DNA of 64,000 nt from Apostichopus japonicus (taxonomy: Eukaryota > Echinodermata > Holothuroidea > Aspidochirotida > Stichopodidae): positions 22,101,265 to 22,165,264 of the forward strand of contig NC_092573.1 of the NCBI RefSeq assembly GCF_037975245.1, in the 5' to 3' direction. Position numbers and translations under genes: made by a program. Shown here in pieces: positions 1,691 to 64,000 of the stretch. Under the pieces are notes generated by a model. The model searched no databases. It was given only the letters and a program-made list of their open reading frames with translations, and was not told the DNA's origin. The stretch's first letter is position 1. Every line of letters begins with the position of its first letter.

Positions 1691-4600
1691 ATCCAAGTAG
1701 TACAGCAAAATGCATTGAGATATATGTGACAAACAATTTTCGCATTGGCTGCTGATGACCGAGATGGAAACTTTGATTGTATTCAGAACACAGGTTGATC
1801 TCTACCACAGAAAACAGGCTTCTTCTCAGGCCTCGACAAATATGCTTAAAAGTACTCGCTACTTGGCGACCGTGACTAAAAATCTACTCCCAAAAACGCA
1901 AAATTCACTCGCCACTATGATCCCTGTTCTAGTCTCCATAGTACAGATCTACAACATCAATACTTTCTGTGAACAAAGGTTAGGCACTTAAGCAGATACA
2001 TTGTGCTACGTAATTGCACATTGGAAAATTATGTTTCTGTGCAGTATGAAATTTTTAACTTCTTTCCACCAAAAGTAAGCGATGAACAAAGTAAAACATG
2101 TCGCAGAATCAGAAATAAGCAGCTAGACTGAGCTAGGCCTACTGCGTAGTGTCTCAAACAATTAACTCTAAATCATCTGCATAAATATCTACGACGATAG
2201 CTTGGATTATGTTATGCACCCTCCTGTACTCCTCTCCCCACCCTCCCTACCCGACACCATCTCCATCTACCGTACAATGTTTAGGAAATTGCTCGGCAAT
2301 TATGTTTCCCAGACATTTAAAGCTATAGTGACTTCTTTATTGCTATATGTATATCACTATCACCAGATTATCTTCTCTATGTCACCAGTACATGCTAAAC
2401 GTGCGTTACGTTATCTGATCAGTATATCATTGTATTAGTATAATATAATATGAACGTCGGATGTCATGTGACGTCACAGTGACGTCATGTTGCGCTAGAG
2501 CATGGAAGTTACTCAACAGAAGACCTTGCACCTTTAATATATTGTCAAATAAAAAAAACCCACATCTACCACCGTATTTATTGGGATTAATTCTGCTTCG
2601 AAATTCTGTAATGAAAAACGTTCTTTCGATTTACAATCGGCGGAGTATATGCATGAAAGAATAGACAAGTGACTCTTGTCTTTGTTTATGCAACGTATCT
2701 GATTGTAGACAATATATTAACCAGATCTTCTCTTGGATCACCAACAACATTGATGTAATTCAACGGAACACATCGCGAATCTAAGAAGATTAGCTTTAAT
2801 CGGGTGTTAATAACTTCATTATTCGATATAAATGTTGAATAAACCGGTTAAATAGTTACGGCGATATTCGAAGCAAAAATGTCCGTTCAATCGCAAATAG
2901 TAATATGTTAGTCAATGTAGAGTAACGGTATACAAATATAAAAAGGTAACATTGTGTTTTTTACTTCCTAATATTATTCGTATAAAGGGAAAATTTGTAT
3001 GCAAGTTTTTTTTAAAAGAACTTGCATTTGATTACCAGATCCCAGCATTTTCACAAATATATTCAGTATTGCTTCAAGAATTATACATTCACAAAATGTC
3101 TTTTTATCAAAGTAACGTTAAGTACTAATTAATTAATAGTTGTAAATAATTAATAATTCCGTTCGAATTTTTAACATTCTCAATTAAAAATCTTGGTTCC
3201 TTGATCATTTTTGTTGTTATTGTTTCTTCGTTGTTTGAAAAGAACTTTACACTTGACAATGAATAAACTGAATTGTAATACATTAATAACACTATTATAT
3301 CGAATATTTTGAAAATATCTAAAAAAGTAAAGAAGAAACAATACCTTAGATAGGAATCAAAATACCAAACACAGACTCGAGGAACAATTTCGTTTAGTCA
3401 TTTTTAAACTTTTCTTAATTAAAGAGGTACGAAAGATGAATTGATAAAAGTACTAGTAAAATATTTAAACATAAATTTCATTCGATATTGGTGTTCACTT
3501 CCAGCTCCTTCTCTATATAGAGTGATGTTCCACCTAGATTTGCGAATTTAAACTAATTTCCCCTTTCTTTATTCCATTATATCAGAAGGCATATTTCTTT
3601 AGAGAGGCTTAATTTTCGAAATTTGTAAATTGAAATTACACACAATTCTATAACGTTTTTTGTTTATATGTATTAGGCGATGGATGACAGGAATATTATT
3701 TTTCGAAGAACGTTGTATAATTAAAAATGTGAATTCGATTACTTCTTAAACACTGCTGATTATTTTTCACTGTTGATGTTGATTGGTCTGCCCCCCCCTT
3801 CACGCCCCCATCCCCTCCCAGCAAAGCGATCGATATATTTCTCTCTATACTTTATTTTAATATACCTTAATTAAAGTACAAAATAATAGTTTCTCATGCT
3901 TTCAATTTCTTAATCGGGGGGGGGGGGCGATCTTATGACCATGATATTCCACATAGCTTTATTAAACCTTACGAAGGATCTCTAATCGGATGATCCGCTG
4001 AAGATTAACAAAGCTATACCTAATCTCACATTGCGTTTACAGATCACAATATCCACTTACATATACAAAGATACAATTAAGGTAACAGAGAAAAAGCCCT
4101 TACCTTTAATTTATTTCTTCCGTTAACAGCTATACTGCAAAGAGATATTCTCAGTTTCGATCCTAAAAGAGATGCCAATAAAGTTTGCTTTTAATTTCCT
4201 TGGATAAATTCCAAACAATTCCTTGTATTGCGAGAACCGACGTTACCTACTGTAGATTGCTATGTGAAAATGACAGTGTGATCTATCAAACTGAACAAGG
4301 TTGTAAATTTTTCACGAGGATTAAAACGCTTTACGTTCACCAATATTGGCGCGCTGTTTCTTACAAGAAATCATCAAACGGCACTGGGGCAGTTTATTTT
4401 TCTTCTACCATACAGCTGTTGCTAAGCAATAAGAGCGTTTTTTGTCGCAAATCGCAGAGTCCGCGAGAACAAGATCCAAAACAGTTGGAAGGCCTCAAGT
4501 ACCTTAGTGTTGCATTCACCTGAATGTATGCCTCTTCGTTCTTTTCACAGAAACAAAAAAAAAATCGGTTTGTTTACCAATCGAAAATTATGAATGGTAG

Positions 4601-5508
4601 GTAGTATTCCTGAGATGGGATTGGTTTGAGATAAGTGATTGTAGTATCCAACCTGAAGTACTTGGGACCATGGAAGGTAAACAAAAGGTTGTAGGAGGGG
4701 CAAAGCGGACCCGATCGATTGAGTGTTAGGTTCCGTAAATTGGAATACAATACATTGGGACACTTCTGATAACGGGATTACTGGAGGTGATAATCAGGTG
4801 AAGGTTTGGGTGACGTGACCGTGTATGGGAACAAAAAGGTGCAGTTAGGAATAGAACAGTTATTGCTTATACAAGCCCTATGCTTATGCAGTAGACCCCT
4901 TATAATAAACAGGGTTTTTTGTAGTGCGCAATCTTGTCAATGTGTAACGGTATACCCTTCACAATACAGTAAGAAGGAATAAATAGACTGTTTGCTGCTT
5001 GAATGAAAGTCATAGCATTTACGTCTTAGAGCTTGGCAAAAATATCGACCGCTGGGATATAACTGTAAATTAAACAATGTGTGCGTCTCAAGATAGACCA
5101 GCCAAGTTATATAACAAACTCAAAGCTGTGGAACTATATATTCGTATAATGCGGGCATGACAATGGAACGTAATTATAAAAACATATGCTTGAGGTGTGA
5201 ATCCTTATATATGTAACTCCAAAGTAGGCTTGACGAGAGAGAGAAAGAGAGAGTGATAGAAAAAGATATAGGGGTGGGTCGGCGTACAACTCTGTGGTCC
5301 TGGATCAATTAGGCAACCTGAAAAAAAATACGCGGGTGCCCGTAAAATTAAGTGATTGAGAATAGTGTATATAGTCAATTTAATAATAAACTTCAGAAAA
5401 GAAGAATTGTTAAATTGGGCCCAATGACATTATGCTCCTGAGCCCTACTTGGCTGTCGATATCCTGCCTCAATGATTGTCGAAGAAACAGTCATATTACA
5501 TATATAAA

Positions 5509-9943: not shown

Positions 9944-12709
9944 TTATTGGTTCACTGGCATAAGCTTAGAGGAGCTCGGCATAGGATCTGTAAACCACAG
10001 ATAAAAGCAATAGTAGACTTCTAGTGAAATGTTTCACACATTTGAAAAAAAATGGGAGATTATTCAACTGATGCCCTAAGGATGCACTAAGAATGAGAAC
10101 AAGATCTATTTCTTTCTAAGTACGGTAAGTAGTTTCAAGTACAACTAAATATTAATTTGGAGTAGAAATGCCCTTTACTGCTCTCTACATGTGACACAGA
10201 GCAGCGAGGAGACAATTAAAAATAGGAGTGTTAGCTCAGTGGTTAACGCTGGTGCCTTCCAATTATAAGGTCCCCAGTTCGAGGCACTCCAAGATTAATG
10301 TATGTCATCCAGTAACAGAGTTGTTGACAATTGACAATTCATAACCATGGACGTTAAATATGAATCTAAGAGACTGATTTCGGTCAGCTTCTGGCTTCTT
10401 TGGGAGTTCCTGCTTGCAGGAGGATCCAAACTACATACACACATAAGTCACAGACATGGTATGAAAGTAGGGAGGGGTGCAGGAAGGGGGAATTCATTTT
10501 GGCAAAAAGCAGAGTCTACACAATCAAATATTTACTAGTATGTTCAGCTCATTGTTATAAGCTTTTGAAACAACCACCAACACCCTAGTTTACCTATGAA
10601 CCCCTAATTCTCACATGCCCACCACAGTTACCCCATGGTTCCACAATACCTCCCACCAACCCCCCCCCCTACACTTTTACCATGGTTTACTAATGACTCC
10701 TCTAGTTTTCTCCATCCTCCTCTGGATTTTCTCAAGCCTCGCCTAGTCTACACCATATTTGCCAATACTTTCCACATGTTCAACCGTACCTATGGTTATA
10801 CAATCAGTACACAGCTTAATTTCTGTGTTTCAATTTCTCATCTCACCTTCAACATCCTCATCCTCATCATCTTCCTCAGAGGATGAGGTGTATATCACCT
10901 TGTTTCTTTGTCTTGCATCATCAAATGGAGTCATCCTCCCATCAGGAATATCTTCATCTGACATAAATGACTCATCTTCAAGTGAGCCTAATAATATGAA
11001 ATCCAACCCCTGGGTGTTAAAATAGAAAAGGGACAATATGGTTGATATATAGATTAATGCTGCAACAACAACAGAGAACTTTCACATAGGAATTCCTATT
11101 CTATAGTATTAAATTATGTTAAATTAATCTTATTGTTCCTGTATATGCTACAGTGTTCAGAAAAAAAGAACACAGAAGTAGGGAAGCTTGAAAGACAGTC
11201 TGAAGGGCAACCTAGGCTCGATTGACTGCACTATTTACATGTTTACAGCATCAAAATTATTTATTGCAAAGGATTTGTGAACTAGAAAGGTTAGAATATT
11301 TATTTCTGTTTTTCTAGTGACAATTTTGAATTTCTTGTCGTTAAATGACTGAAAGAAATTAAAGGTCAATTGAGATCAAATAGTTCATACAGCAGTTTCT
11401 GCTTAGAACATTGACCTAAAATGTATTGTGTGAGGCAGTGGAATTCCATTATCAAATTTTGGCAACTGCTTTAAAATAGAGCAACATATCAGTAAAAAAC
11501 TTTGTCTCATTTCATTGAACTTTCTACAAAGTTGTTTGGTGCTTTCAGAAACTACTCATACAGACAAGCTGTTTAGATTAAAGATAGCAAAATAATTAGT
11601 TTTGACTGGGGAAGGGGAATGGAGATGAACTGGAGAGTGGGATAACGGGAAACAAGAGAGCTTGGGGGAGGGGAATGGAGATGAGTAGGTGGGTCGTCAG
11701 ACAAGCTTTGAGCCACTAGCCTACTAGCCCAAGAAAATGGTCCATGCTGTCACATACATAACACTGGATCAATTTTAACCCTCATGCAGACCCATATTAA
11801 ACTGCTTGTGAAAGCTGTACAGCTGTACATGTGCAGTCCTTTGCACACTAAACAATCGCTACCGAATCTCAATAAATAACAGACTGAAACTAATACAGAA
11901 TGGAAGTCAATGCTTACCTTCCAATGACATGGCCTGACAGTCATTTCATTCTCTCTGAGATCAAATTTAATCAGACTCGAAAATCCCAGCAGCAAATCAT
12001 CTGGAAGACTGGAGATTAAATTCTTCTTCAACAGTAACGTTGACAGTCTTTGAAGCTTTGTTAGACAAGGTGGAATCTCCACTATTCGGTTCTCACTGAT
12101 ATCGAGGTATATGAGGTTTTGCAGTCTTTCAAAATGGGATGGAAGATCTTGAAGCCAGTTTCCTGCCAAGTTGAGCCATTTTAACTTCAGACATTGGCTA
12201 ATTTCGGTCGGTAGTTCTGATATCATATTATCCCTGGCTCCTAACATTTGTAAGGAAGAGAGCAAACCGATCTCTGATGGCATAGCAGCCAGCTCACAGC
12301 CTACCAGCCACAGTTGTGCTAACTTTTTCAAGTCACCAATGTCAGGTGGAAGATAGCTCAGTTTGTTATGACTCAAGCTCAGATATCGTAAATTTGATAA
12401 GCCACCAAGGCCTGAGGGCAGCACAGTCAATTGATTGTGGTCTAGAGTTAGCTCCTCCAATGTATGGAGGTTGACGATTTCCGTTGGTGGCATCAGGATG
12501 TCGTTGTTGTTCAACAACAGTCTCTTTATGCAAGTCATTTTTGCAATGCATGATGGCAAGACAGTCAGATGTCTGTGACTTATATTTAATGCTTGCGTCT
12601 CATTTTTGACCGCTCTGAGAATGTCAGATTCTGTTTCTTTTTCTGATAAAATCTGCTGGGCAAAACTTTTGTGCCCACCATTTGGCAAGGTTTTATTATT
12701 GACATCCAT
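9944..12709 (-). CDS. Leucine-rich-repeat protein with acidic C-terminal tail (3 exons)
   Basis: Exons, minus strand: 12709-11918 (264 codons, donor GTAAGC), 11009-10847 (donor GTGAGA), 9987-9944 (stop TAA). Phases agree (0, then 1), giving 332 residues. ATG 12709 has G at -3 and +4, with an in-frame stop upstream. Residues about 40-260 form nine or ten typical 23-residue LRRs (e.g. LEELTLDHNQLTVLPSGLGG, LRYLSLSHNKLSYLPPDIGD), the LxxLPxxI type of SHOC2, Rsu1 and LRRC proteins. Exon 2 encodes an acidic tail with a casein-kinase-2-like TSSSEEDDEDED stretch. There is no signal peptide or membrane segment, so it is probably a cytosolic or nuclear binding protein; the partner is unknown. I could not assign a named orthologue. 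The last exon (13 residues plus a split codon) is the weakest part. The gene is divergent from LRRC49, about 2.7 kb away. Confidence 0.82.
10225..10420 (+). mobile_element. tRNA-derived SINE, plus orientation
   Basis: It begins with a tRNA-like head: A-box-like TTAGCTCAGTGGTTAACGC and B-box-like CAGTTCGAGGC. About 125 bp of body follows, ending at GCTTGCAGG. The inverted copy at 30314-30527 matches over the whole length, including the phrase TTGACAATTGACAATTCAT in the body. It lies in the last intron of the minus-strand LRR gene. Confidence 0.85.
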
Positions 12710-12712
12710 CAC

Positions 12713-14811
12713 AAGGTCTACTCAACTTCATCATTATCGTGGCTCAATGGCTCCTGTCGCTAGATTAATGGGAGGTTCTACGACATAAGAAGAAGAAGAT
12801 TTAAGCAGTGACAATCTTTCTTGCCATTTGTTGTACATTATGCAAAACACCAATTATAGAAATAGATAATTTAAGTTAGTGTACAATATAATTTTGCTTA
12901 GAGAAACAGGGAAAAATTATACGATGCATAGTGGCAGTGTGGGCATATTTTATTAAGTTTTGGCTATTGAGCATGGGGTAATTGCTTATTGACTCAATTG
13001 CAATATGAGAGCTGAGAGACTCATCAAGTTATAGAGTATAATATTTCCATCTATGCAGGCAAAACTGCACAGTTTTCTTTATCACCACAATATCTTTGTG
13101 TACTGCTTAGAATACACAAATAATCATGGAATGATGGTGATACCTGTAAGTAGCTTAGAGGATCTATCATCATACTCCTACATGTCAAATATACTTGAAA
13201 GCACTTTTATTTTAAATTTTAGGAATGATAGTATTACCTGTTTATGTTTTTCTATACTGGTGAGAGTACAGTAGGCCTACATTGTCCATCTTTTATTTAG
13301 ACGTCTATCAGGTAAATAGGCACCAGGGCATCAGTGCACAAGAGTGCAATTCTGCTTATTTAACTAAAGATCATTTTAATGAGTCCCAAAAGGATCAGAA
13401 CAGTTGAAGGACTGTCACTATTGGCTATCTGGTAAAAAAAAGGGGGAATGGCCTGTAACACAATGCCCATATCTTGCTTCTTACACTAGTCTTACTCTTT
13501 TTTGTATTCTTACTAGTTATACATATCAAAAGAAGTCAAGTTTTGAGTATTTCATAGTTTCAATAGAATACGCTCGCTATTCCTTGTGCGAACTTGTCAG
13601 GATACAAAATGAGAAGTACTATTAATCACAAGTGTATTTACTATTTTGCATAGGTAATAGGTTTTGCAAGCAACGGTGATCGGTAACCCGTGAACCACTA
13701 CACGAGCCTATGCCTAACGAGTAATGTTACTTCTTTAATAACCTAACGTTAGGCCTACATTAGCCAATGTCAGTCATTACCTAAATTTTGTCTTTGGAAA
13801 GCTACCCGTGGATATGTTCATCTAAACGGTTAAAAATATATTAAGAGTAACATATACATACCTACTTTGTTAAAAGCATGGCATTAAATACCACTTTGAA
13901 ACTGAAACTTGCACAGTAGTCTGAACAATATTTGTTGGTTGTTGATGTAAGTTATGGTACGCCGTTTTTGTAAAAATGTGTAAACTTTTAACCGGGTTTT
14001 AAGAAACAGTCTTGATTTGATAGAAAATTACTCAATACTGCTTTACATGAAGTTTGTATAGTTAAATATTAAGGTTGAGATAATAAGGGTAGTACCGTGT
14101 AATATTGATCACTGACTATATCTGTAGATACATGGAGTTGAACATCGTATGAGTACTTTTTCATGTTGTTTTGTTTAGACAGCTCCATCACCTACCTCCA
14201 TGAATAGGAATTGTTTTATTAGTGAAGAAAAAATCGGACACAAAATCACCAAACAAAATACATAATGATTAGCGTTAACTCGTTCACATTCTTCCTCTAC
14301 TTATTTTCATGCCGTAATTACAGAGGCAGCCTCATCTGAATTTCATACCGTGGAAAACTTGTGTTTTGCAAATATATATAGCATTAGTCACATTTATGAA
14401 GCTATTATCAATAATAGCAGTGATCTCAAAGTAAGCATGGAAGACGCATTAAAGAGGATCTGAGTCCCTCGATTTCTTCAATTTACGGAGGTTTACTTAT
14501 CCTCTGTGAAATATTTGTTAAATGAGGTTACATGGAAATCATCACTAGGCCTACTATTGTAATGTAAATTTATGCAAACTTCCCAGTAGCCGAAATTCAG
14601 TAATGTGTCCGGAAAAAAATCTAGTACAAGTAGCTAAATGTAGAGCCAAATGTAAGAGGAGTAGAGCTGAATTTGTTAAAAAAATTAGAGGGAAAATAAT
14701 TGTTCACTGCATTGACTACTAATTATGAGAACCATGGCATAAAAAGATTTACAAAGGATATGTAGCCGAGGGCGGATCAAGGACTTTATAAAGGAAGGGT
14801 GTGGCCATCAG
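12713..14811. other. Intergenic between the two divergent LRR genes
   Basis: The divergent promoter space should lie here and up to 15436. I see no TATA box that decides a start, and no exon. Confidence 0.45.
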
Positions 14812-15436: not shown

Positions 15437-33843
<18,407 letters not shown>

Positions 33844-38554: not shown

Positions 38555-39133
38555 AGTTTTATAGTGGCAGAGTGTTGCAGGATCAAGTGAACCTTAGGTT
38601 TTAGTATGGTGGGACTTTGTTGCAGGATCAAATGAACTATAGGTTATAGTATGGTGGGACATTGTCGCAGGATCAAATAAACTAAAGGTGTTAGTATGGT
38701 GGGACATTGTCGCAGGATCAAATAAACTAAAGGTGTTAGTATGGTGGGACATTGTCGCAGGATCAAATAAACTAAAGGTGTTAGTATGGTGGGACAGTGC
38801 TGCAGGATAAAATGAACTATAGGTTTTAATATGGTGGGACATTGCTGCAGGATCAAATAAACTATAAGTTATGGTATGGTGGGACAATGTTGCAGGATCA
38901 AATGAACTATATGTTTTAGTATGGTGCAGGATCAAATGAACCGTAGGTTATAGCATGGTGGGAGAGTCTTGCAGGATCAAATGAACTTTATGTTATCGTA
39001 TGGTGGGACAGTGTTACAGGATCAAATGAACTATAGCTTTTAGTATGGTGGGACAGTGTTGCAGGATCAAATGAACTATACATCTAGTATGATGGGAAAG
39101 GGTTGCAGGATCAAATGAACTGTAGGTTACAGT
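38555..39133. repeat. 45-bp minisatellite, about 13 units
   Basis: Units run GCAGGATCAAATGAACTATAGG, then TTTTAGTATGGTGGGACA, then TTGTT; starts recur every 45 bases from 38577. One unit near 38917 lacks about 10 bp. Because 45 is a multiple of 3, the minus strand stays open for 114 codons with a 15-residue repeat. That frame is broken by the short unit, so I do not call a gene. Confidence 0.93.
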
Positions 39134-39889
39134 ATCAAGCACACATTTACAAAACGGTGATATAATGCAGAAACACTCATGATCGAAAATGACTACTCAA
39201 ACTTCATCCTGTGTAAATGACGAGGCATGTTTTCCCACTCGCTAATAACAGCGTTTATATGAACAAAATGCACACATTACACATTGTACGTCAACCGAAA
39301 ATAATTAGTATATTTCAAACTAGAAACATCGACTGCATGTGTAAAATCAACATTTAATTAGAAAATACAACAAAACCGTCTGGCTATAAATACTCATGAC
39401 GAGATTAAACTAAAACATAACCACATTGTTTCCAGAAATTAAAAGAAAAGACAAACATTCCTAACTTTTTGGACAAATGTACAAGACTGAGTACTGTTGG
39501 CTTGTGTGTATGTGTCACAAGTCAAGTATGACGACATTTGGTTTGCTACGGTATATACGGTATATATATAGATAGATATATATATGGCAGTCAGTACGTC
39601 AATGCATCAGATTAGACTTGTGATTACCTTTGACTCGCATGCATAGCGTAGGCCTAGGACTGTTAATTGTACAGCGCAGAATGGCATACGTAGCTGTCTA
39701 GCCTTGCCGCAGAGGCGTTATTCAAAATGGCTGACAAAAGCTCCAAATTTAATAGATAGTTCCCATGATAAACGGGAGTAAATATATACATATCCTACCG
39801 AAGTATACTATCACCGTTTTCTAAATTGTATAAGACCAGCCCGTTTTGACTTAAAAACACCACATGACTTTGATTTGATATTAAAAGCC

Positions 39890-44400: not shown

Positions 44401-47400
44401 GGAGTGGCTGTTGAAGTGTGCTATATTGCACCAAATTGCATCTGAGGCCACCTGGAAATGCAAAAAAATTCCAAAGGGGAGGGGGACACCCCCTCCCCTT
44501 AAACCCCTCCCCCAGGCCGGCCATCAGTCTTCAGCCCCCCACTCAAAAGTACCTTCCTACGCCACTGCGGTTAGTTATTAATGTCTTTATGCATTATTCA
44601 ATATTTGACTTATGTCTTACCTTTGTAAGGTAGAAGAACGGGAAGAACTTCACGATAGCATCAGAGGCGCACTCTAAGAGAGTAAAAACTGCATAAATGA
44701 CCCAATAAGTAGACCATTGGACATCTTGTTTGTCGTTTCGACTCTTGCCAATCAACGCCACCCTGACAGTTTGAAGAAAAAAAGAATGAAATATATTAAA
44801 AGATACAGGAATATTTACAAACTGAAATATGTTGTTGATTTGATTGATCATATTTTTACTAGACGGTATAGTGTGGGCTTGCGGCTGATAGAGTACTTTT
44901 GCTTCTAACTGACTTAAACGTTGTTGTTCCTTGTTGGCTTGATTTATCATTACCGTAACACAAAAGCTCTTTCTAAGTATCAATCCCCTGTCTTCAACCC
45001 CCCCCCCCTCCCCCATAATTACAACCCCATGAGAACCATTTGCCAGTTACTTCGGTGATGTCAGAAACGTCTTGTGACGTCACTGACTTAGATGCGCTAC
45101 ACTGAGTCAATGGTCTACCTACTGACATGTGTGTAAGTTTGTATGAATGTGTGACTATTTCCGTTCAGGCAGCTCCTTCCAGACTGGATTTTTTTTCTTC
45201 ACACAGACAAATTAAGCTAAGAGAGCAGTATAAATAAGGGTAGCCATAAAAGAAAATGGTAGACAGAATCTCTGAGCAGACGGAAGCAGTTGGCCACAAA
45301 CGACAAAAGGAGATTTAGCCAAATATTAGTTTAATTCCGTGCTGAGATCATGTATAGCCTTACTAAGGTTAGGGAACTTACGTTTGGTAACACGGATACG
45401 TAATTGCCACCAGTGTCGTAACGAAATGTGTTCCATAACCAACGAGGAGTGACAATAGCGTGATTGATGCAAAACCTGTACGAGACAAAAAGGAGAATAT
45501 ATGAATGAAGGGAGCAGATGATGAGCCCAGACAAGAACAAAGGAAATGTTTAGGTGTGAAACAGGGTGGGGTGCAGGAAGGGGTGTGGCCCTGGGGTCGT
45601 TGAATCCGACTGTCATGTAGGAGGCTCTAGTGGTCCTCCCCAAACTTAAAATTTTAGAAGTGAAATGTTGAATCATTCCGAGGCATATTTAGGCTATAAA
45701 TTAGGTGTACACGAAAGTTTGTACTAATGACTAGCCTACTTTTACACACTTTGTTGGGGGTTGACATGGGGTATAACAGGGAAACGCACCTGTGTATCTT
45801 GCATATCTACTGTACACAAAGAAATTGAATTTTCTTCATGAACTCTCCCTCATAGTGACCGATGTTTGACCGAAAAGTTTCACATACAGTAAACACCATG
45901 CGGAAGTGCATCTCCCGTGGTAGCCTTTTGGGATACATGTGCTTGTAATTTATGGTAAGGTGGATTACAAAACATAATCTTGATCCATTTTAATGATTTC
46001 CTTCCGATAAAAAGCCAAACAAATTTATTCATCACGACAGATGCTGCTGTCTATTGGTGATGGGCTTTACGCCTTTGTGACACCCATTCTTAAAAATTGA
46101 CATCATAACCATGGGTTATGGGGAAGGTTGGGCGCAGGCGGAGTAAATGTGTGGTTTCCAGGGATCGACATTAATTGCTTTTAAAATTTGTGTTTCCATT
46201 AGAATTCTCCTTGTATACACAAACCTGTAGGCTGATTACACCTAGTACAATTTTATGTAGCATGAAGTTGTGTTTTGGTTTACTTCTTTATCGAGGTTAA
46301 CCTGGCCAATGTATTCAAAATACTCAAAATACATACGTAAGTGTGATGAATAAACAAAATAGCGACCGATTTATCATCAGGTGTAACACTCGGGCGAAAT
46401 GATTTTATTTGACTATTCCAAGCCATCAATCTGCATATGTCATTTACATTGAGAACCAAGAAAGGTGACGGATATCAGATACTCAGAGAACCTAAAGTTA
46501 CATCTGAGTCAGTTAGCGTATCACCCCCCCCCCCACAAGCATCCCCAAGCACCTCCTCACGCCCCATGCTGCAACTTATTTAATGTTTGGAAACTCACAC
46601 TACACAGGCCGGCTTAGGCTTCGTTTCCGGTAGACATTGAAGAAAATACTTATTTGGCTTTCCTCTTTGTTTACAAATTATGATTTAGTAACAACTGTTC
46701 AAGAAAGTGACATTTCTTCTCGCTCTACAGATACCGACATCACGTGACATATCATGGGACAACAATGCCAAGTCTGATCCCTGTAGTCTAGCTGTAAACA
46801 GATCGCCCATAGTTATATAGATAACTGTACATCTGCGGGTTTTCCATAGAAACGTGCTTTTATGTACACACACGTCAAACCATGCCAAAGAGCAGGTTGA
46901 AAACTGATACAGTATTGACATTGTGACATTCCGTATGATTGCTGCCTATGTTCAATGACAACACACAAAGTACATATAGTTCTACCGTGTTGGTGGGTTG
47001 CTCAATGAAGACTATCTATAGTGTTGCTATCTCTTTGTTCTCTACGTGCAACAGCTGGTTTACCATCAATGCAGCTGATATATATTCATCTAGTTTGGTT
47101 TTTCCTTACTTTCACCTTTAAATGACATTCCCCTTTAAATGCCGATACTGACGGGCGATCACTTTTGACTAAATTATAAATGTTAGGTAATTGATTTATA
47201 TAACTTCTTATAACGCGACCACGAATAAGTACTTTGCCTACGATAGGCTATACGCCACCAAGCATCTAAGGATGAAACAAAGTCGAAAACAATTGCAATC
47301 TATTGTGAAAGTGTTGTCTGAGTTCAAAAATTAAATTCTTGCTTTCCCATTGAGTTTAGCGTTGCTTCCGAGGTGTTGGCCTGATAGTCTGTTCGCTAGA

Positions 47401-55577: not shown

Positions 55578-56375
55578 TGAGACATAGTTAATTTATTAGT
55601 ATACAAATATTAAAACCTGTTATAACGGCTATTATAAAACTTGGTTGAAGGAAATGAAAAAATAGCAGATATTTCCGAAACCGAACATTACACACATAGG
55701 CGTAGGAGGCGCGGCGGCAGTGGCGGAGCTAGGGGTATTGGTCAGGAGTGGCGAGAATGGTCTGAGGGGGCGCTTTCGACACTATCTAAGCGGAGCGCCA
55801 CCACTGGTTGGCGCATAGCGTACAGAAAATTTTTGAGTAAAGACTCTCCCTAGATCGCCGGAAATGACCCTTTCCGGGCCTGGCTAATTTGCAGATAAAC
55901 GGAGAGTAGGGTGTCATCGCCAAATTACACCAACAAAATGTGACAAATGTCAATAAGTAGATGAGAGCGCAATAAAAAAGTCAACAATCTAGAATAAGTA
56001 AAAAGTGGTAAAGAGCTGAAAGAGGCGCCAGCAGTCCATTTGAGTCCGTCAGGGGGGCATCCGCCCCCCTGACCATATGGACGGTCCGCCACTGCGCGGC
56101 GGGGGACAGGCCCTGATTCTCCATTAGTAATGTGAAAGAGAGTTTTAACACAATTGGACCTCCATGCTTTTTATACAATTACATGAGACATGTTGTTGTT
56201 TGCATTAGCATCCCGCGGTATACAGCAAATTTTGGCCGAAAATGTCTCCCAGATCGCGGGAAATGACTTCCCAGGCTCTGTAAGTTGCCTCCAAGCACTT
56301 TTATATTTTAAAATCACTTAGCGATATCATTTAAAAAATGATGAATGGGGGGAGCGGTACCCTCCCCCGGCCCCC
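55578..56375. repeat. Dispersed repeat, copy 2
   Basis: Near-identical to 1-648 and then 1044-1190, in direct orientation about 55.6 kb away; the 395-bp segment of copy 1 is absent. It carries the same nested hAT element. Confidence 0.82.
55718..56094. mobile_element. Non-autonomous hAT-type element, copy 2
   Basis: 377 bp, CAGTGGCGGAGC ends, flanked by CGCGGCGG at 55710-55717 and 56095-56102, exactly as in copy 1 at 140-516. Confidence 0.82.
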
Positions 56376-57885: not shown

Positions 57886-58639
57886 GTAAGTTACACTTAA
57901 ATCGCAGCTTTCATGTTTTATTCTTCTCTTGTCTTCTACATAACTCTCCTATTTCTGGAAAATTGAACACTGTATGTTAAGAGAAATGTTTAGATTAATA
58001 ACATGTGAAAGATAGATAACTGTTTTGATTTTGTGGCTTTGATGTTGTACGTTTTTGAAATTTTTTCCAATCCTTTCGCTCTATCAGCAGCCTCAAAGTT
58101 CGTAAAATATAAGACATGTTACAATAGCATATTAATAGCTATACTCACATCAGGACCTAAGCGCTGAGGCCGGTGTCACGTCGTTCGGCATTTAAGTGAT
58201 TTAAATTCTTAGTCCCAGTGCTCCTTCGTTCCACAAACATGGATTTAAGAAATACTTTGGATGATGAAAATTTTTTAGGAGGAATGAGGAAAGAAAGGAG
58301 GAGCCGTAAAGTCCTTGTAGGTTGGCTAAGACTTTGGATATTCGAAAATTATTTTTGAATTCAAATTTAACTTCGTTCTGTGTTTATTCGATAATGTAGC
58401 CAGGCTTGTTACAATATACCTCCCGGCAGCCCCCCACCCCCCCTGCATTCTGTCAGGTCTGCCCACCAGGACCTAGAAATACATGCCACATGTATTTGGT
58501 GCTTTAAACGAGAAACGAAGAGAAAAACAAAGACCCCGAATTCAAAATCTTCCGGAGAATCCGCCCAGTTTTCCGCTTGTAACCCCAACATGCACAATCA
58601 GCCCAAGCCAGTGCACTGAAAACTTAAATTGGTTCACCG

Positions 58640-58990
58640 ACTAACATAACGTTAGTCCATCTGGTGCCTCTCCCGACTAACATAGCCTTAGTCAGTTGCT
58701 ATACCGACTAATTTATTCCTTAGTCAGTTGGATTTCTTAGTGGGTCATCTTAGTCCGTCAACTTAGTCGATCAACAATTTCTTAGTCGGTAAATGTATAT
58801 TAGTCAGTTACATTAGTTGGTGACATTAGTCGGTCTTTACCGACTACTTTATATGAGCCACCGACTAGTTTATAGCAGGTTTTACATTAGTCAGGATGGT
58901 GCCTCTCCCGACTAACCTTTCTTAGTCGGTATCGACTGACTAGTTGCACTGACTAGAATCACTGAAAGAATTAAACCCGACTAGTTTCAC
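58640..58990. repeat. Left GACTAA/TTAGTC motif array
   Basis: By hand count about 20 copies of GACTAR/YTAGTC in both orientations within 350 bp, often extended to TTAGTCGGT, TTAGTCAGT or GACTAACNNAACGTTAGTC palindromes. The phrase GGTGCCTCTCCCGACTAAC occurs twice (about 58660 and 58900). Confidence 0.88.
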
Positions 58991-59632
58991 TGACTAGCAT
59001 CACTGAAAGAAAAGAGAGCAGAAGAAACACAAATAATGTGTACGTTGGCAGTATTTATTTCTGATAAAACTTCTGATGTCTACAAAGGCTGACTTTCGAC
59101 AGATAGGGAAGAAATCACTGTAAACAAAAATCTGAAAATATGATTTTATTCCAACAAAGTTAAGACAAGTTAATGGATCAAACATGAATCGCAAAAGTAT
59201 AGCACTGCACAATAATGCAAAGTTGAATCTTGGGCAAGGGTTCCTCATGACTTTCGTTTTAAAGTGGTACCCCAAATCGACACCAGTTAAGTCTTCACGA
59301 ACAAAGAGTGTTTCTCCTAACTACAAATGGCCTCCCACTTGTCTTCAGGAAGCCAAAATCTGCACCATAATTGACCTGTGAACAGAAAATATGATATACG
59401 TGTAAGCACAGATACAGATATAGCACATGATAACTCACATTATCATAAACATACATTTACATTAAAATTTTATAACATATTGGGAAGTATACATTTAAAT
59501 CTAGGTCCCTCAAATTATAAGCCAGGAATAGCAGCTTTACCAAATAATTATTAGCTTTGCACAGCATAACACCAAGTTATTTTTCAAAGCTTAATAATTA
59601 TGTTAATCATGTTAATAATGATCCCAATAGAC

Positions 59633-60858
59633 CGGGAGCCCAGAGGGTTTGGTTAGCTGGGAAGGTAACCAATTGCCTTGTACATCACAATGTTCACAGT
59701 GCATTCCTGTATATGAAACCAGACGACTTGCAAACCGACTGTGGTGGGTGTGGCTGGGAGAGCAATTTTAAAGTCACCTGATAGCTAACCTAGATCAGTT
59801 TTCATGGTAACACATCTAAGTAAGTACAATGTGTCAGGTATGGCCCCAAGAGCAACAAATGGCCATTGCCAGTAATTATTGGTGGTGGGGTACCCCTGCC
59901 AGTGATCTATAATTGACCCCTCAAGGCTGACCTAGGTCAGCTCATGAGGAAACCACTTGAAACCTACTGGAAAATGTTGGTTAGGACTTCAGATACAACT
60001 GATGGGCATTGCCAGTAATTTTTATTGGTGGGGTACCCCTGCCAGTAGACCCCCAAAATGCCCATCCCCCATTGACCTAGATGAGCTCATGATGTAACCA
60101 GTTGAAAACTACTGGAAAATGGTATCACTTCATATGTAAGGGATGGGCATTTCCAGTATTTTATATTAGTGGGGTACCCCTGCCAGTAGACCCCCAAAAT
60201 GCCCCCCCCCTCATTGATCTAGGTCAGCTCATGATTTAACCAGTTGAAAACTACTGGAAAATGATTGACAGGATTCTATATGTAAGGGATGGGCAGACTC
60301 TGGCAGTGGTGGCCCACCAATATAAAATACTGGAAATGCCCATCCTTACATATGAAGTGATACCTATCATTTTCCTGTAGGTTTCAACTGGTCAAATCAT
60401 GAGCTCACCTAGGTCAATGAGGGGATGGGCATATTGGGGGTCTACTGGCAGGGGTACCCCACCAATAAAAATTACTGGCAATGCCCATCCCTTGTATCTG
60501 AAGTCCTAACCAACATTTTCCAGTAGGTTTCAAGTGGTTACCTCATGAGCTGACCTAGGTCAGCCGTGAGTGGTCAATTGTTGATCACTGGCAGGGGTAC
60601 CCCACCACCAATAATTACTGGCGATGGCCATTTGTTGCTCTTGGGGCCATACCTGACACATTGTTCTTACTTTGATGTGGTTACCATGAAAACTGATCTA
60701 GGTTAGCTGTTAGGTGACTTTAAAATTGCTCTCCCAGCCACATCCACCACAGTCGGTTTGCCAGTCGTCAGGTTTCATATACAGGAATGCATTGTGAACA
60801 TTGTGATGTACCAGGCAATTGGTTACCTTCCCAGCTAACCAAACCCTCTGGACTCCCG
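59633..60858. repeat. Large fold-back with internal tandem units
   Basis: The left arm 59633-60175 pairs with the right arm 60308-60858 over almost its whole length (outer phrase CCAGAGGGTTTGGTTAGCTGG-like, inner phrase GGGGTACCCCTGCCAGT). Arms consist of roughly 140-bp tandem units, each with GGGTACCCCTGCCAGT, a GACCTAGGTCAGCTCATGA-type block and CTACTGGAAAATG. One extra unit forms the loop. Confidence 0.9.
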
Positions 60859-62844
60859 CTCTACAGATCAGTGAAAATTTGACCAAACTTATGAAGCTTG
60901 CACGTAAATGATATACTAGACTGTTTTTTTTTTAAAACAGGTTATGAAAAGTATCTTTAATATCATTAAACAGTTGGGTACAATAGTTAAACTCACTCTT
61001 CCATCTTTTTTCTCTATGGTACTTGTTCCTTTGCTTTTTGGACTCTTGGATAAACTCTTTTGTTCTGCGAAGGGTACCAATATATCATCTTAAAACATGT
61101 CTTTAAGCCATATATAACACAGTTCTCCTCTTCTGTTGTTGCCTCCACACTGGTGTCGTACATCACAGGAAACCTCACCCTTGACTTAGATATTTGGCTT
61201 TTCAATTCCTGCTGGAAAAAAGAAACAGCAAAGTATTCATCATTTGAAAAAATAAATAAATAAAGTTGTCACCACAAAGTTATGTGAGATTTGCTTCCAC
61301 TATAGTCTCAAAAAACAATCCCAAAGTTTGAAGCAGACTGTATAAAGCTGAAAATTTGAACAAGAGTGTCATCACCATTGCAACCAGAATCAAATGCCCA
61401 GAATACAGAGATAATAAAACATGGGCTAAATCTTTGTTTGTTTTTATGATCTTTAAAAATATAAAATTTTAGAAACAGAAATGCACTGAGCCAACTTATT
61501 TATAGGCCTAATCGTTTTTAGTTGTTATTTTGCTTGCTCACATAACAAGCCTGTTTAGACCTAGGCTAGAGGAGAATCAATACTTTGTTACACTAAGTTT
61601 GTCTTTCGGTCGTTTTGATTTAGTCTTACTAGTAGTACTAAAGTATATAATGGACCGGCGAAGACTAGAGAATACCCAGAGTTTTAGCAACTGCGTTAAA
61701 CTGTATCATCTGATCTATTATTTACGTCAATGAGTTTCATTCAATCTAGGATCAAAAAGAGAAAACTAATTAATCTTAACCTTTAAACTTTGCTACTAAA
61801 CAGATATGCTTGAATTACAAATAAATGTCAAAAAACATCATAATCTACGAATCGATGCATATACATATACATAAACAGAATAATTTGAATTCGCGCAAGT
61901 GAACCCTGCACTACATTGGACAGAAAAAAAAACGTGCAATTATAGACCAAACTAAACATACTAAATTTTCCGTTACTTCTACATAAAATATCAATACAAA
62001 TACAACAACTTACTCTTTTGGCAGTATACTAAAAGCACATGTTATAATAACTTCAGACTATCAAGCTTTCCTGAGAAAAAACGGTTAATACTTCTTACAG
62101 TAAACAAGTCGACCGTGAAGGAATGTACGCAATTGTTTCATGAGCGTGACCGGAAATTAAATACTAAAAAATGATAAATGAAAAGGTTAAATAGAACTGA
62201 AGCGTGCATCCTGACTGCTCGCAACATATAATACCGTTGACTAGCCAACATAATTTGTTCAGCCTACTGTGACTGTACGTTTGAAGGTCTAGCCTTGCTT
62301 ATTCAATATCACAAAGCCTACCCATTTAGATTCACATGGGATATTACAGGAAATCTTTACCAAATGAGTGTAGACTTCAAATAAACTATTGAGACTTATA
62401 GTTCCAGCATTTGTTTGGGAATAAATTAGAAGATTATGTGCCACTGTTCAGTCTAGCCCAATACACACATAACACATTTTTAATTGGTGTTTAGAATGCA
62501 CGCTTTAGTGTTGAGAATGCACTGCAGTACCCAGTAGAAGCCTATAGGCTACTCACTGTCATTGCACTTGTGTATTGCGAAAAGCCAGCGTGACAACGGT
62601 AGCGTTACACTAACCATAATACATGAGTACTAGTGCCAGTGGCCTAACAATTAACTTTAATTTTACCTTCAAGTTAAAGGAATAACAGGTAGGCCGATGA
62701 TGGCAGTTAATACCTCCATTCTTCTAAAGACCTTCTTGGGTGATTTACGGTTGAAAGTTGCTTAGAGTGATCGTATGAAACTATGCCAAGTCCAGCAAGC
62801 TGCCGTTGCCTCTCGGTTTCCAAATTGAAGTGAATCGAATTGGG

Positions 62845-63090
62845 TTAAAATACATTAGTCCGTCGACCGACCGACTAAGCTACGATTATGGCGTAAATCG
62901 GGTGTCCGTATCGTTCTTAGTCCATGGGTTAAAATACCTTAGTCCGTCGCCATCGACTAAGCTGCGATTATATTTTCCTTAGTCAGTGTAAACTGACTAA
63001 GAAGCAGCGATGAAACGAAGATTTTTGCTAGTTCGTGTGCATTGACTAACGTTACAAACTAATTTAACGTTAGTCCGTGGCAATATTGAC
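62845..63090. repeat. Right GACTAA/TTAGTC motif array
   Basis: A unit GGGTTAAAATAC, then TTAGTCCGTCG, then CGACTAAGCTRCGATTAT occurs twice (about 62840-62890, 62928-62975). It is followed by TTAGTCAGT, GACTAACGTTAC and TTAGTCCGTGG up to the right end. Confidence 0.85.
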
Positions 63091-63108
63091 TAGTTTATTT
63101 TTTCAGTG

Positions 63109-64000
63109 TGGTGCGGCCGTTCCACAGAATAATTTCATTTTTTTAGGTGCTTTACAGTGCTTCTGATATTTTCAAATTATCTACTTTACTTAAGAAAATG
63201 ACTTTTCATCTAAAAATATTGATGTTTTATATCAACCATTTGGTGTTTTTCCTTAAAACCTTAAAGCTTTACGGGGAATCCACCAATTTCTATGTTAACG
63301 TTAGGGCGCTTTTTCGTCTAAGTTGGATTTTCACTTATGGTAATGATGTTTTATAGAAAAAAACGAAATGTTTAATTCGGAATTGTTCACTCAAAACTCA
63401 AAACTTTTATCTCCAAAATATGATATTTTTCTATAAAATGGCGAAGTTTTAACTGTAAAGTTTTGTCGTATTTCTCTTAAAATTTTGAAGTTGTATTTTA
63501 GATGTTTCTACATTTTATCTCAAAAATTTACATGTTTATTAGTGACATGATGCAACTTGAAATTTCTATGAATTATGAGAATTAAATGGACTAGTGAATT
63601 GTTCATTGTATGATAGTGGAGTATCAACGTCCATTTCGATCGAGCTGAAATTATGTGTTATGGGATATTCGAGACTTGTTGAAGCGGCAATCAGAAATAT
63701 TTTGTCAAAAAAAAATTGCCAGAACCCCCCTCCTAATCAACCCCTCTCCTCCTCCATCCGGCCAGTCTTTGATCCTTAGTGACGCCCTTACAGTGAAGGA
63801 TTGAGTGTTCACAATTATAAGTAACTGACGGTATAGTGTTTCCTCCTAACTTATAGCTTATGTTAGCATGAAAACCTGTCTTTGAGTAATTCTGACATCT
63901 CAATTACACTCGTGAGATTAGACGTATTTGCTATAACCTTTATCTTTGTGTCACATCATTGATATTTCAGATCTGGTCTTTACATTGTCTGTTTTTCAGA
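63109..64000. other. Right edge, no gene seen
   Basis: AT-rich DNA. The last bases (TGTCTGTTTTTCAG then A) form a good splice acceptor at the window edge. Confidence 0.4.

Follow-up and report, generated by a model that had tools for sequence, protein, structure and literature searches.

The transposons closest to the element described here are the CACTA/EnSpm elements of plants (En/Spm, Tam1 and soybean Tgm), which have a short terminal inverted repeat (TIR) starting CACT, dense arrays of a short motif in both orientations inside both ends, and deletion derivatives that are mobilised in trans. Their subterminal arrays have been described as binding sites of TNPA-like proteins and as cis-determinants of excision, and defective En/Spm elements as moving in trans (PMC2613891). 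Animal CACTA elements of the TRC type (SmTRC1, elements of Aedes and Tribolium, and Hydra 'Spongebob') are described as leaving a 2-bp duplication, and SmTRC1 as having a Transposase_21 domain (PMC1636069, PMC4298943). Here we analyse a 4,495-bp element, which we call el (el position 1 is window position 58614), in the holothuroid Apostichopus japonicus. It lies in a window of 64,000 nucleotides (contig NC_092573.1 of assembly GCF_037975245.1, positions 22,101,265 to 22,165,264, forward strand). We consider it likely that el is a young, mosaic, non-autonomous CACTA-like cut-and-paste transposon, presumably recognised through its TIRs and ACCGACTAA arrays, in which end modules were exchanged onto a foreign body and a fold-back transposon rides as a passenger.

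Like the plant elements, el has a short TIR starting CACT, dense short-motif arrays in both orientations inside both ends, and a likeness to deletion derivatives mobilised in trans. It differs from them in its 2-bp rather than 3-bp duplication, its CACTG rather than CACTA start and its array motif, as well as in its mosaic body and its nested fold-back, and no transposase with its ends was found at the five of 20 Transposase_21 places read. The 2-bp duplication is shared with the animal TRC-type elements, whereas their CCC tip matches not el, which starts CACTG, but another family in this genome, the CCCAGG family. A CA..TG tip is described as usual for the wider CACTA/EnSpm (CMC) clade (PMC12730594), and el has such a tip, although not a strict CACTA; it also has a 2-bp duplication in 32 of 32 complete copies, 31 of them independent, and a short subterminal motif in both orientations. 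Membership of the CACTA superfamily is probable, and we file el as CACTA-like by mechanism. The long inverted repeat of el is internal and its perfect TIR is only 9 bp, so that the element as a whole does not bear the Foldback label. By its sequence, el combines pieces of three or more distinct mobile elements. Its features, in window coordinates, are:

58614..63108, plus strand: the whole non-autonomous element el (33 copies fetched, 32 of them complete and sharing both end points; 276 body tags)
58612..58613, no strand: left copy of the target-site duplication, TG (2-bp flanks identical in each of the 32 complete copies)
63109..63110, no strand: right copy of the target-site duplication, TG (flank comparison)
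58614..58622, plus strand: left TIR, CACTGAAAA, imperfect to about 20 bp (inverted-repeat and copy comparison)
63100..63108, minus strand: right TIR, the same 9 bp inverted (inverted-repeat and copy comparison)
58636..58997, no strand: left subterminal array, 23 ACCGACTAA sites in both orientations with a recurrent 13-bp spacing (motif scan)
62855..63078, no strand: right subterminal array, 11 ACCGACTAA sites (motif scan)
59092..59610, plus strand: body segment A, with 90-92% identity to the CCCAGG-ended family and a deletion junction near 59222-59226 (alignment)
59625..59627, no strand: CAA, left flank of the fold-back, a probable 3-bp duplication (comparison with the empty site of the related family)
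59628..60863, no strand: nested fold-back transposon with TAGA...TCTA ends, arms about 95% complementary and tandem units of about 143-148 bp (inverted-repeat analysis and five ends at four other places)
60864..60866, no strand: CAG, right flank of the fold-back, differing from CAA at one base (comparison with the empty site of the related family)
60864..61661, plus strand: body segment B, with 83% identity to the CCCAGG-ended family, overlapping the second insert by its last ~10 bases (alignment)
61652..62225, no strand: second insert, 574 bp, absent from the CCCAGG-ended relative and lying between ATATAAT copies at 61645-61651 and 62226-62232 (alignment)
62226..62829, plus strand: body segment C, 83% identical to the CCCAGG-ended family (alignment)

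The original prediction, made from the letters of the window, had bounded the element at 58614-63108 and proposed a non-autonomous transposon mobilised by a transposase encoded elsewhere. A search of the 671.6-Mb assembly (35 contigs) recovered near-identical copies that start and end at exactly these two points. We fetched 33 copies, of which L029 was excluded from the end and duplication counts (its right end is truncated and its left tip changed). All 32 complete copies have identical 2-bp flanks; from base composition, the chance of such a match is about 0.07 per site. Leaving out L023, whose flanks are identical to those of L019, gives 31 independent sites, at which the dinucleotide is TA in 19, AA in five, TG in three, CA in three and TT in one. 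L019 and L023 are one insertion in duplicated DNA on the same chromosome (C7:2133309-2138985 and C7:4421276-4426266, 2.3 Mb apart). Three further copies, L034, L036 and a copy on C2 (L045+L046), are TA/TA-flanked and stand outside the 31-site count. Empty sites with a single dinucleotide were found for three insertions, namely L009, L030 (in L035) and L021 (in L033); the alignments for L004 were gapped at the insertion point and were not counted. The arrays were not seen elsewhere without shared boundaries, nor did homologues break at other points, either of which the prediction had named as grounds for giving it up. These data demonstrate that el has inserted, as one unit, at 31 or more independent sites, leaving a 2-bp duplication, and that it is a young non-autonomous DNA transposon. 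Duplications of this length do not fit Chapaev and Chapaev3 transposons, in which the target-site duplication is 4 bp or 3 bp. Nor do they fit hAT elements, for which 8 bp (5-8 bp) is described (PMC12730594).

The element has been amplified to a few hundred near-identical copies: a body tag gave 276 matches genome-wide and a TA-flanked left-end pattern 193, with no matches in either case for the control, the same tag read backwards. Among 31 copies used for the tree and divergences (L018 and L028 left out), 29 differ from the consensus by 0.16-2.3%; rearrangement or truncation inflates the values for L019 (5.5%) and L029 (14.7%), which were not used. Over the 3.1 kb of outer sequence that was compared, L021 matches L022 at every base although the two lie at different genomic sites, which points to recent movement. 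Sequence alignments of el, including the substitution test below, used 23 of 27 extracted copies (without L018, L019, L023 and L028); the extraction itself lacked L013, which the pattern missed, and L029-L033, which were fetched afterwards. L028 (C7:4055978-4062067) carries a 562-bp insert at el 3023 (locus about 1988-2550), which matches nothing in the window, the CCCAGG element or the other loci fetched. In L018 (C23:10206729-10212447), about 250 bp of the right-array region (el 4066-4314) is tandemly duplicated (locus about 4540-5040).

The GACTAA/TTAGTC arrays that the prediction had placed at both ends were borne out by a motif scan, in which a site was defined as ACCGACTAA with at most two mismatches. 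Site density is 56.5 per kb in the left 407 bp (23 sites) and 40.9 per kb in the right 269 bp (11 sites), versus 2.0 per kb in the 58.6 kb preceding el and 2.4 per kb in its middle, so the arrays are 20-28 times denser than background; for the left array, this agrees with the predicted figure of about 20 sites in 350 bp. Exact GACTA/TAGTC occurs 16 times in the densest 300 bp, and the maximum in 100 first-order Markov simulations of the window was five. Position 3 of the motif is C, T or G in 17, 10 and six of the 34 sites, respectively. Inverted CACTGAAAA tips are likewise present, as predicted, at 58614-58622 and 63100-63108. The window contains three matches to this tip and 11 of 100 shuffles reached three, so the tip alone is within chance and its weight rests on the copies: CACTG...CAGTG tips occur in 28 of the 32 complete copies, with tip bases altered in L005, L010, L015 and L016.

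We found no evidence that el encodes a protein, as the prediction had also held. None of ten interior frames had a Pfam match above the cut-off, the best being a weak match to FAINT/DUF529 (E 0.0032, below the cut-off), and coding constraint was absent in all seven interior frames given a substitution test across the 23 aligned copies. For example, the minus-strand frame 59003-59320 has 33 non-synonymous, one synonymous and two stop differences, and the minus-strand frame 61017-61208 has ten, one and one. On both grounds, sub-cut-off matches and an unconstrained substitution pattern, a coding interior was rejected.

Autonomous copies were also sought through Transposase_21 (PF02992) matches; the genome has 20, 15 of them above the Pfam cut-off. 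Five places were read, L038 (with L040/L041), L039, L042, L043 and L044. No GACTAA arrays occur in the stretches read around L039 (frame of 880 aa), L042 (820 aa), L043 (750 aa) and L044 (877 aa); near L043 there is an array of another motif, CCGCGGTA. L038 (frame of 660 aa) led to a CCCAGG-ended relative that abuts its end. The L042, L043 and L044 frames are open and have three, two and two equal-scoring places, respectively; convincing outer ends were not found for these three or for L038. When the lists of PF02992 matches and of TA-flanked left ends were compared by eye, none of the matches on C1-C11 followed a listed left end at a distance of a few kb or less. The longest pairing of ends listed, 14.7 kb on C2 (L045+L046, C2:3082400-3097341), is an ordinary el copy with a nested insert of about 10 kb that has no frame above 135 aa, and was rejected as an autonomous copy. 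This insert lies at el 3506-3513, with an 8-bp overlap at its borders.

The Transposase_21 match at C3:12237942 adjoins DNA that is collinear with the body of el. Segments el 479-613 and 609-997 align to it at 90-92%, and 2251-3048 and 3613-4216 at 83% (82-92% overall). This DNA belongs to a separate 5.46-kb element that starts with CCCAGGTGAAAATTCC, has a near-identical inverted end and GT on both flanks, and bears an AACAGGT/AACTGGT array at each end, the terminal regions accounting for 68 of its 69 AACWGGT sites. At E values up to 0.01, el 1-478 and el 4217-4495 gave no alignment to this relative; homology begins about 95 bp inside the last left-array site and ends about 25 bp before the first right-array site. 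The body of el lacks 1.6 kb of the relative, and the borders of this gap share a 5-bp microhomology, GTTGA. In a search with the CCCAGG body, 40 distinct places were scored of 668 candidates, at 84-100% identity to the query, and 28 of these run uninterrupted from query base 1 to at least 1771, showing that the fold-back is absent there. At four diverged places, eight sides were read; seven have AACAGGT-type arrays, two the CCCAGG left tip and none a GACTAA array, and the left side of the C2 place (L049) reaches neither array nor left end. A 2-bp duplication was seen in one of three checkable copies of this family, the C3 copy (GT/GT); L047/L048 has unmatched flanks and a right tip altered to CCTGGA, and in L053/L054 the flanks, CA and GA, are also unmatched. 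L051/L052 have eroded tips.

The CCCAGG-family body is more diverse (84-100% to the query over the 40 places) than el (0.16-2.3% from consensus). This greater diversity, the deletion at a microhomology and the two inserts with direct or near-direct repeats at their flanks together identify the body of el as the derived one: it is a shortened, twice-invaded version of the body of the CCCAGG/AACAGGT family. Since the homology stops short of both arrays, the arrays and tips of el would be a different module set around a borrowed body, and we infer that end modules were exchanged around the CCCAGG-family body.

The first of the two inserts is the fold-back, which the prediction had described as a symmetric centre of tandem units and had treated as part of one composite element. 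The structure is as described: arms 59628-59811 and 60680-60863 are 95% complementary, arms 59811-60069 and 60421-60679 are 96% complementary, and the units measure about 143 bp. The prediction needs one correction here: the fold-back is not built into the array-ended element. Because it is absent from the related body and present without el elsewhere, this 1.24-kb piece is a transposon of its own, nested in el. The CCCAGG-family body lacks it and reads CCCAAATCAGT at the empty site. A tag for its outer end gave 705 matches at two or fewer mismatches (backwards control 0), about 150 more than the 552 expected from 276 el copies with two ends each, a rough excess since mutated copies escape both tags. 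Of the exact tags, 100 were listed (C1-C7), and 25 of these lie more than 6 kb from every listed el end and body tag, although a part of the 25 could yet belong to el. We read five of them (L055-L059), and all start exactly at TAGA with flanks unrelated to el. L055 and L056 form one inverted pair of 2,934 bp end to end, with AAT/AAT flanks and arms matching at 100 of 101 bases, and L057 and L059 have flanks in common (99%), the fold-back there being carried by yet another repeat. The five free ends thus represent four places in three different surroundings. Eight plus-strand fold-back ends between C7:6749327 and C7:12383190 have no listed el nearby, and the common flanks of L057 and L059 suggest a repeat on C7 that carries the fold-back. 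In an earlier search for free fold-backs, with 40 scored places out of 474 candidates, every place that allowed comparison with the listed el ends belonged to an el copy; free fold-backs emerged only from the tag search. Taken alone, the piece 59628-60863 has long inverted repeats as its ends and in this respect qualifies as a Foldback element. Like Tetris of Drosophila virilis and FB, it consists of tandem units within inverted repeats, units of about 220 bp being described for Tetris (PMC4079207); it differs in its TAGA tips, its probable 3-bp duplication and its location inside another transposon.

The fold-back is variable among el copies. In 27 extracted copies the left arm has two to seven recognisable units and the right arm two. 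Of 100 TA-flanked left ends listed among the 193 matches, which reach only into C12, 80 precede the end of the tag list on C11, and for 59 of them an exact body tag is listed downstream. In these 59 copies the distance from left end to tag, compared with that in the window copy, is near-equal in eight (-10 to +8), shorter in seven (-135 to -158 in three, -276 to -808 in four) and longer in the remainder (+136 to +183 in 12, +238 to +312 in 27, +363 in one and +437 to +453 in four), most changes being multiples of about 148 bp, or one unit. Judged by distance, complete loss of the fold-back occurs in none of the 59. Among the other 21 left ends, six are known to have a fold-back and five have a listed fold-back end at the right distance; the remaining ten were assigned neither way. 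Internal deletions of the fold-back occur in L030-L032, and the left arm is lost in L034. L019 and L023, the two copies of one insertion, measure 4,677 and 3,991 bp and differ in fold-back length, and hence the fold-back changed after the duplication. In the 27 copies with both arms, left and right arms differ by 5.1% within a copy and 5.2% between copies, while same-arm differences between copies are 1.75% (left) and 1.5% (right). Since the within-copy and between-copy values are nearly equal, homogenisation of arms within a copy was not seen; a few positions common to both arms in L017 and L025 could reflect local conversion.

By analogy with En/Spm, the TIR and ACCGACTAA array at each end would act together as the recognition module, serving as a platform for multimeric binding of a CACTA-like transposase or a helper protein from an autonomous relative. 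The two end modules would have joined the foreign body most likely by template switching during repair of a break or excision gap, or else by ectopic exchange; the arrays, not the interior, would then have set which transposase mobilised el. The fold-back would be a passenger with no necessary role, whose tandem units expand and contract after insertion. A broader claim, to which we give an even chance, is that a TIR with its subterminal array is a self-sufficient, exchangeable "address" module, so that a CCCAGG/AACAGGT body passed to CACTG/ACCGACTAA ends and was amplified by a different transposase reading the new array, with a third transposon on board. Chimeric copies are also described for Galileo, a P-superfamily element of Drosophila, in which TIRs of one subfamily occur with the middle of another, ectopic exchange is given as the explanation, and tandem repeats in the arms expand and contract (PMC3573991). 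There the exchange is between subfamilies of a single family with long TIRs, whereas here the end sets are unalignable and the fold-back is internal. Metazoan Pack-TIR elements resemble el in keeping their ends around a foreign interior, for which that work proposes gap repair with template switching (PMC8277862). What they capture is small, however (median 224 bp in the same source), whereas the filler of el is most of the body of another transposon and has spread to a few hundred copies. Judged by titles and the openings of abstracts, we recognised no element combining CACTA, palindrome and fold-back, a statement that extends to those texts and not to everything in print.

The chief alternative is that el and the CCCAGG family are sisters whose TIRs and arrays evolved beyond similarity while the body changed slowly. 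CACTA subterminal repeats are described as varying widely among related subfamilies (PMC2613891), and the two TIRs, CACTGAAAA and CCCAGGTGAAAATT, have a TGAAAA core in common. Gradual divergence, however, fits poorly with 82-92% homology that ends abruptly on both sides, leaving el 1-478 and 4217-4495 unaligned, or with the four diverged places, whose sides have AACAGGT-type arrays in seven of eight cases and never a GACTAA array; we regard it as unlikely, if still the most serious competitor. A Tc1/mariner-type element with CAGT-like tips would account for the TA at 19 of 31 independent sites. A TA target is obligatory for Tc1/mariner, and AA, TG, CA or TT with a perfect 2-bp duplication at the other 12 sites makes this identity highly improbable. 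Hardly more credible is a purpose-built system of array and fold-back, such as a protein-binding locus or a source of hairpin RNA. At least part of the fold-back is kept in all 59 listed left ends with a body tag, by distance, and a transcript of it would form a long hairpin. Nevertheless, the fold-back has its own end point, occurs without el and is missing from the related body, deletions inside it are tolerated (L030-L032, L034), and el offers no coding evidence; fold-back ends outside el already largely refute this possibility.

Several observations weigh against the mosaic CACTA-like transposon that we favour. The exchange of ends is read from a sharp loss of homology, with no intermediate seen, and most of the 40 CCCAGG-family places were assigned by body similarity alone, the ends having been inspected at five. 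Protein binding to the ACCGACTAA motif is read by analogy with En/Spm, and motif sites are not clearly more conserved than spacers (25 of 202 versus 31 of 205 variable positions on the left, 10 of 94 versus 25 of 175 on the right). Within el, the 3 bp on either side of the fold-back differ at one base (CAA/CAG). No autonomous partner with el ends was found, none of the five Transposase_21 surroundings read, of 20, having a GACTAA array; the autonomous copy that the prediction had proposed to look for was thus not recovered there, and its "unknown transposase" stands.

How non-autonomous transposons switch masters is an open question, as coevolution of arrays with transposases is the usual view and yet the appearance of new families is sudden. 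Here a single genome contains one body in combination with two unrelated end-and-array sets, and not only the older state but also the deletion junction and the passenger's empty site can be read, making module exchange testable; the arrangement suggests that the end pieces recognised by a cutting enzyme are exchangeable like a plug. A palindrome of more than 1.2 kb with stepwise unit changes at a few hundred sites also provides a natural series for the study of palindrome and tandem-unit instability.

Elsewhere in the window, dispersed repeat copies at 140-516 and 55718-56094 are about 85% identical to the flanks of L009, an el copy inserted in the same repeat, and the L009 target repeat is also present at 55770-55829. 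Exon-like frames with leucine-rich repeats and a TB2/DP1/HVA22 domain at 11753-12721 (minus strand), 22525-22830 and 25630-25953 (plus strand) and 44597-45046 (minus strand) appear to be host genes near el. A tandem array of 13 copies of a 45-bp unit lies at 38560-39135.

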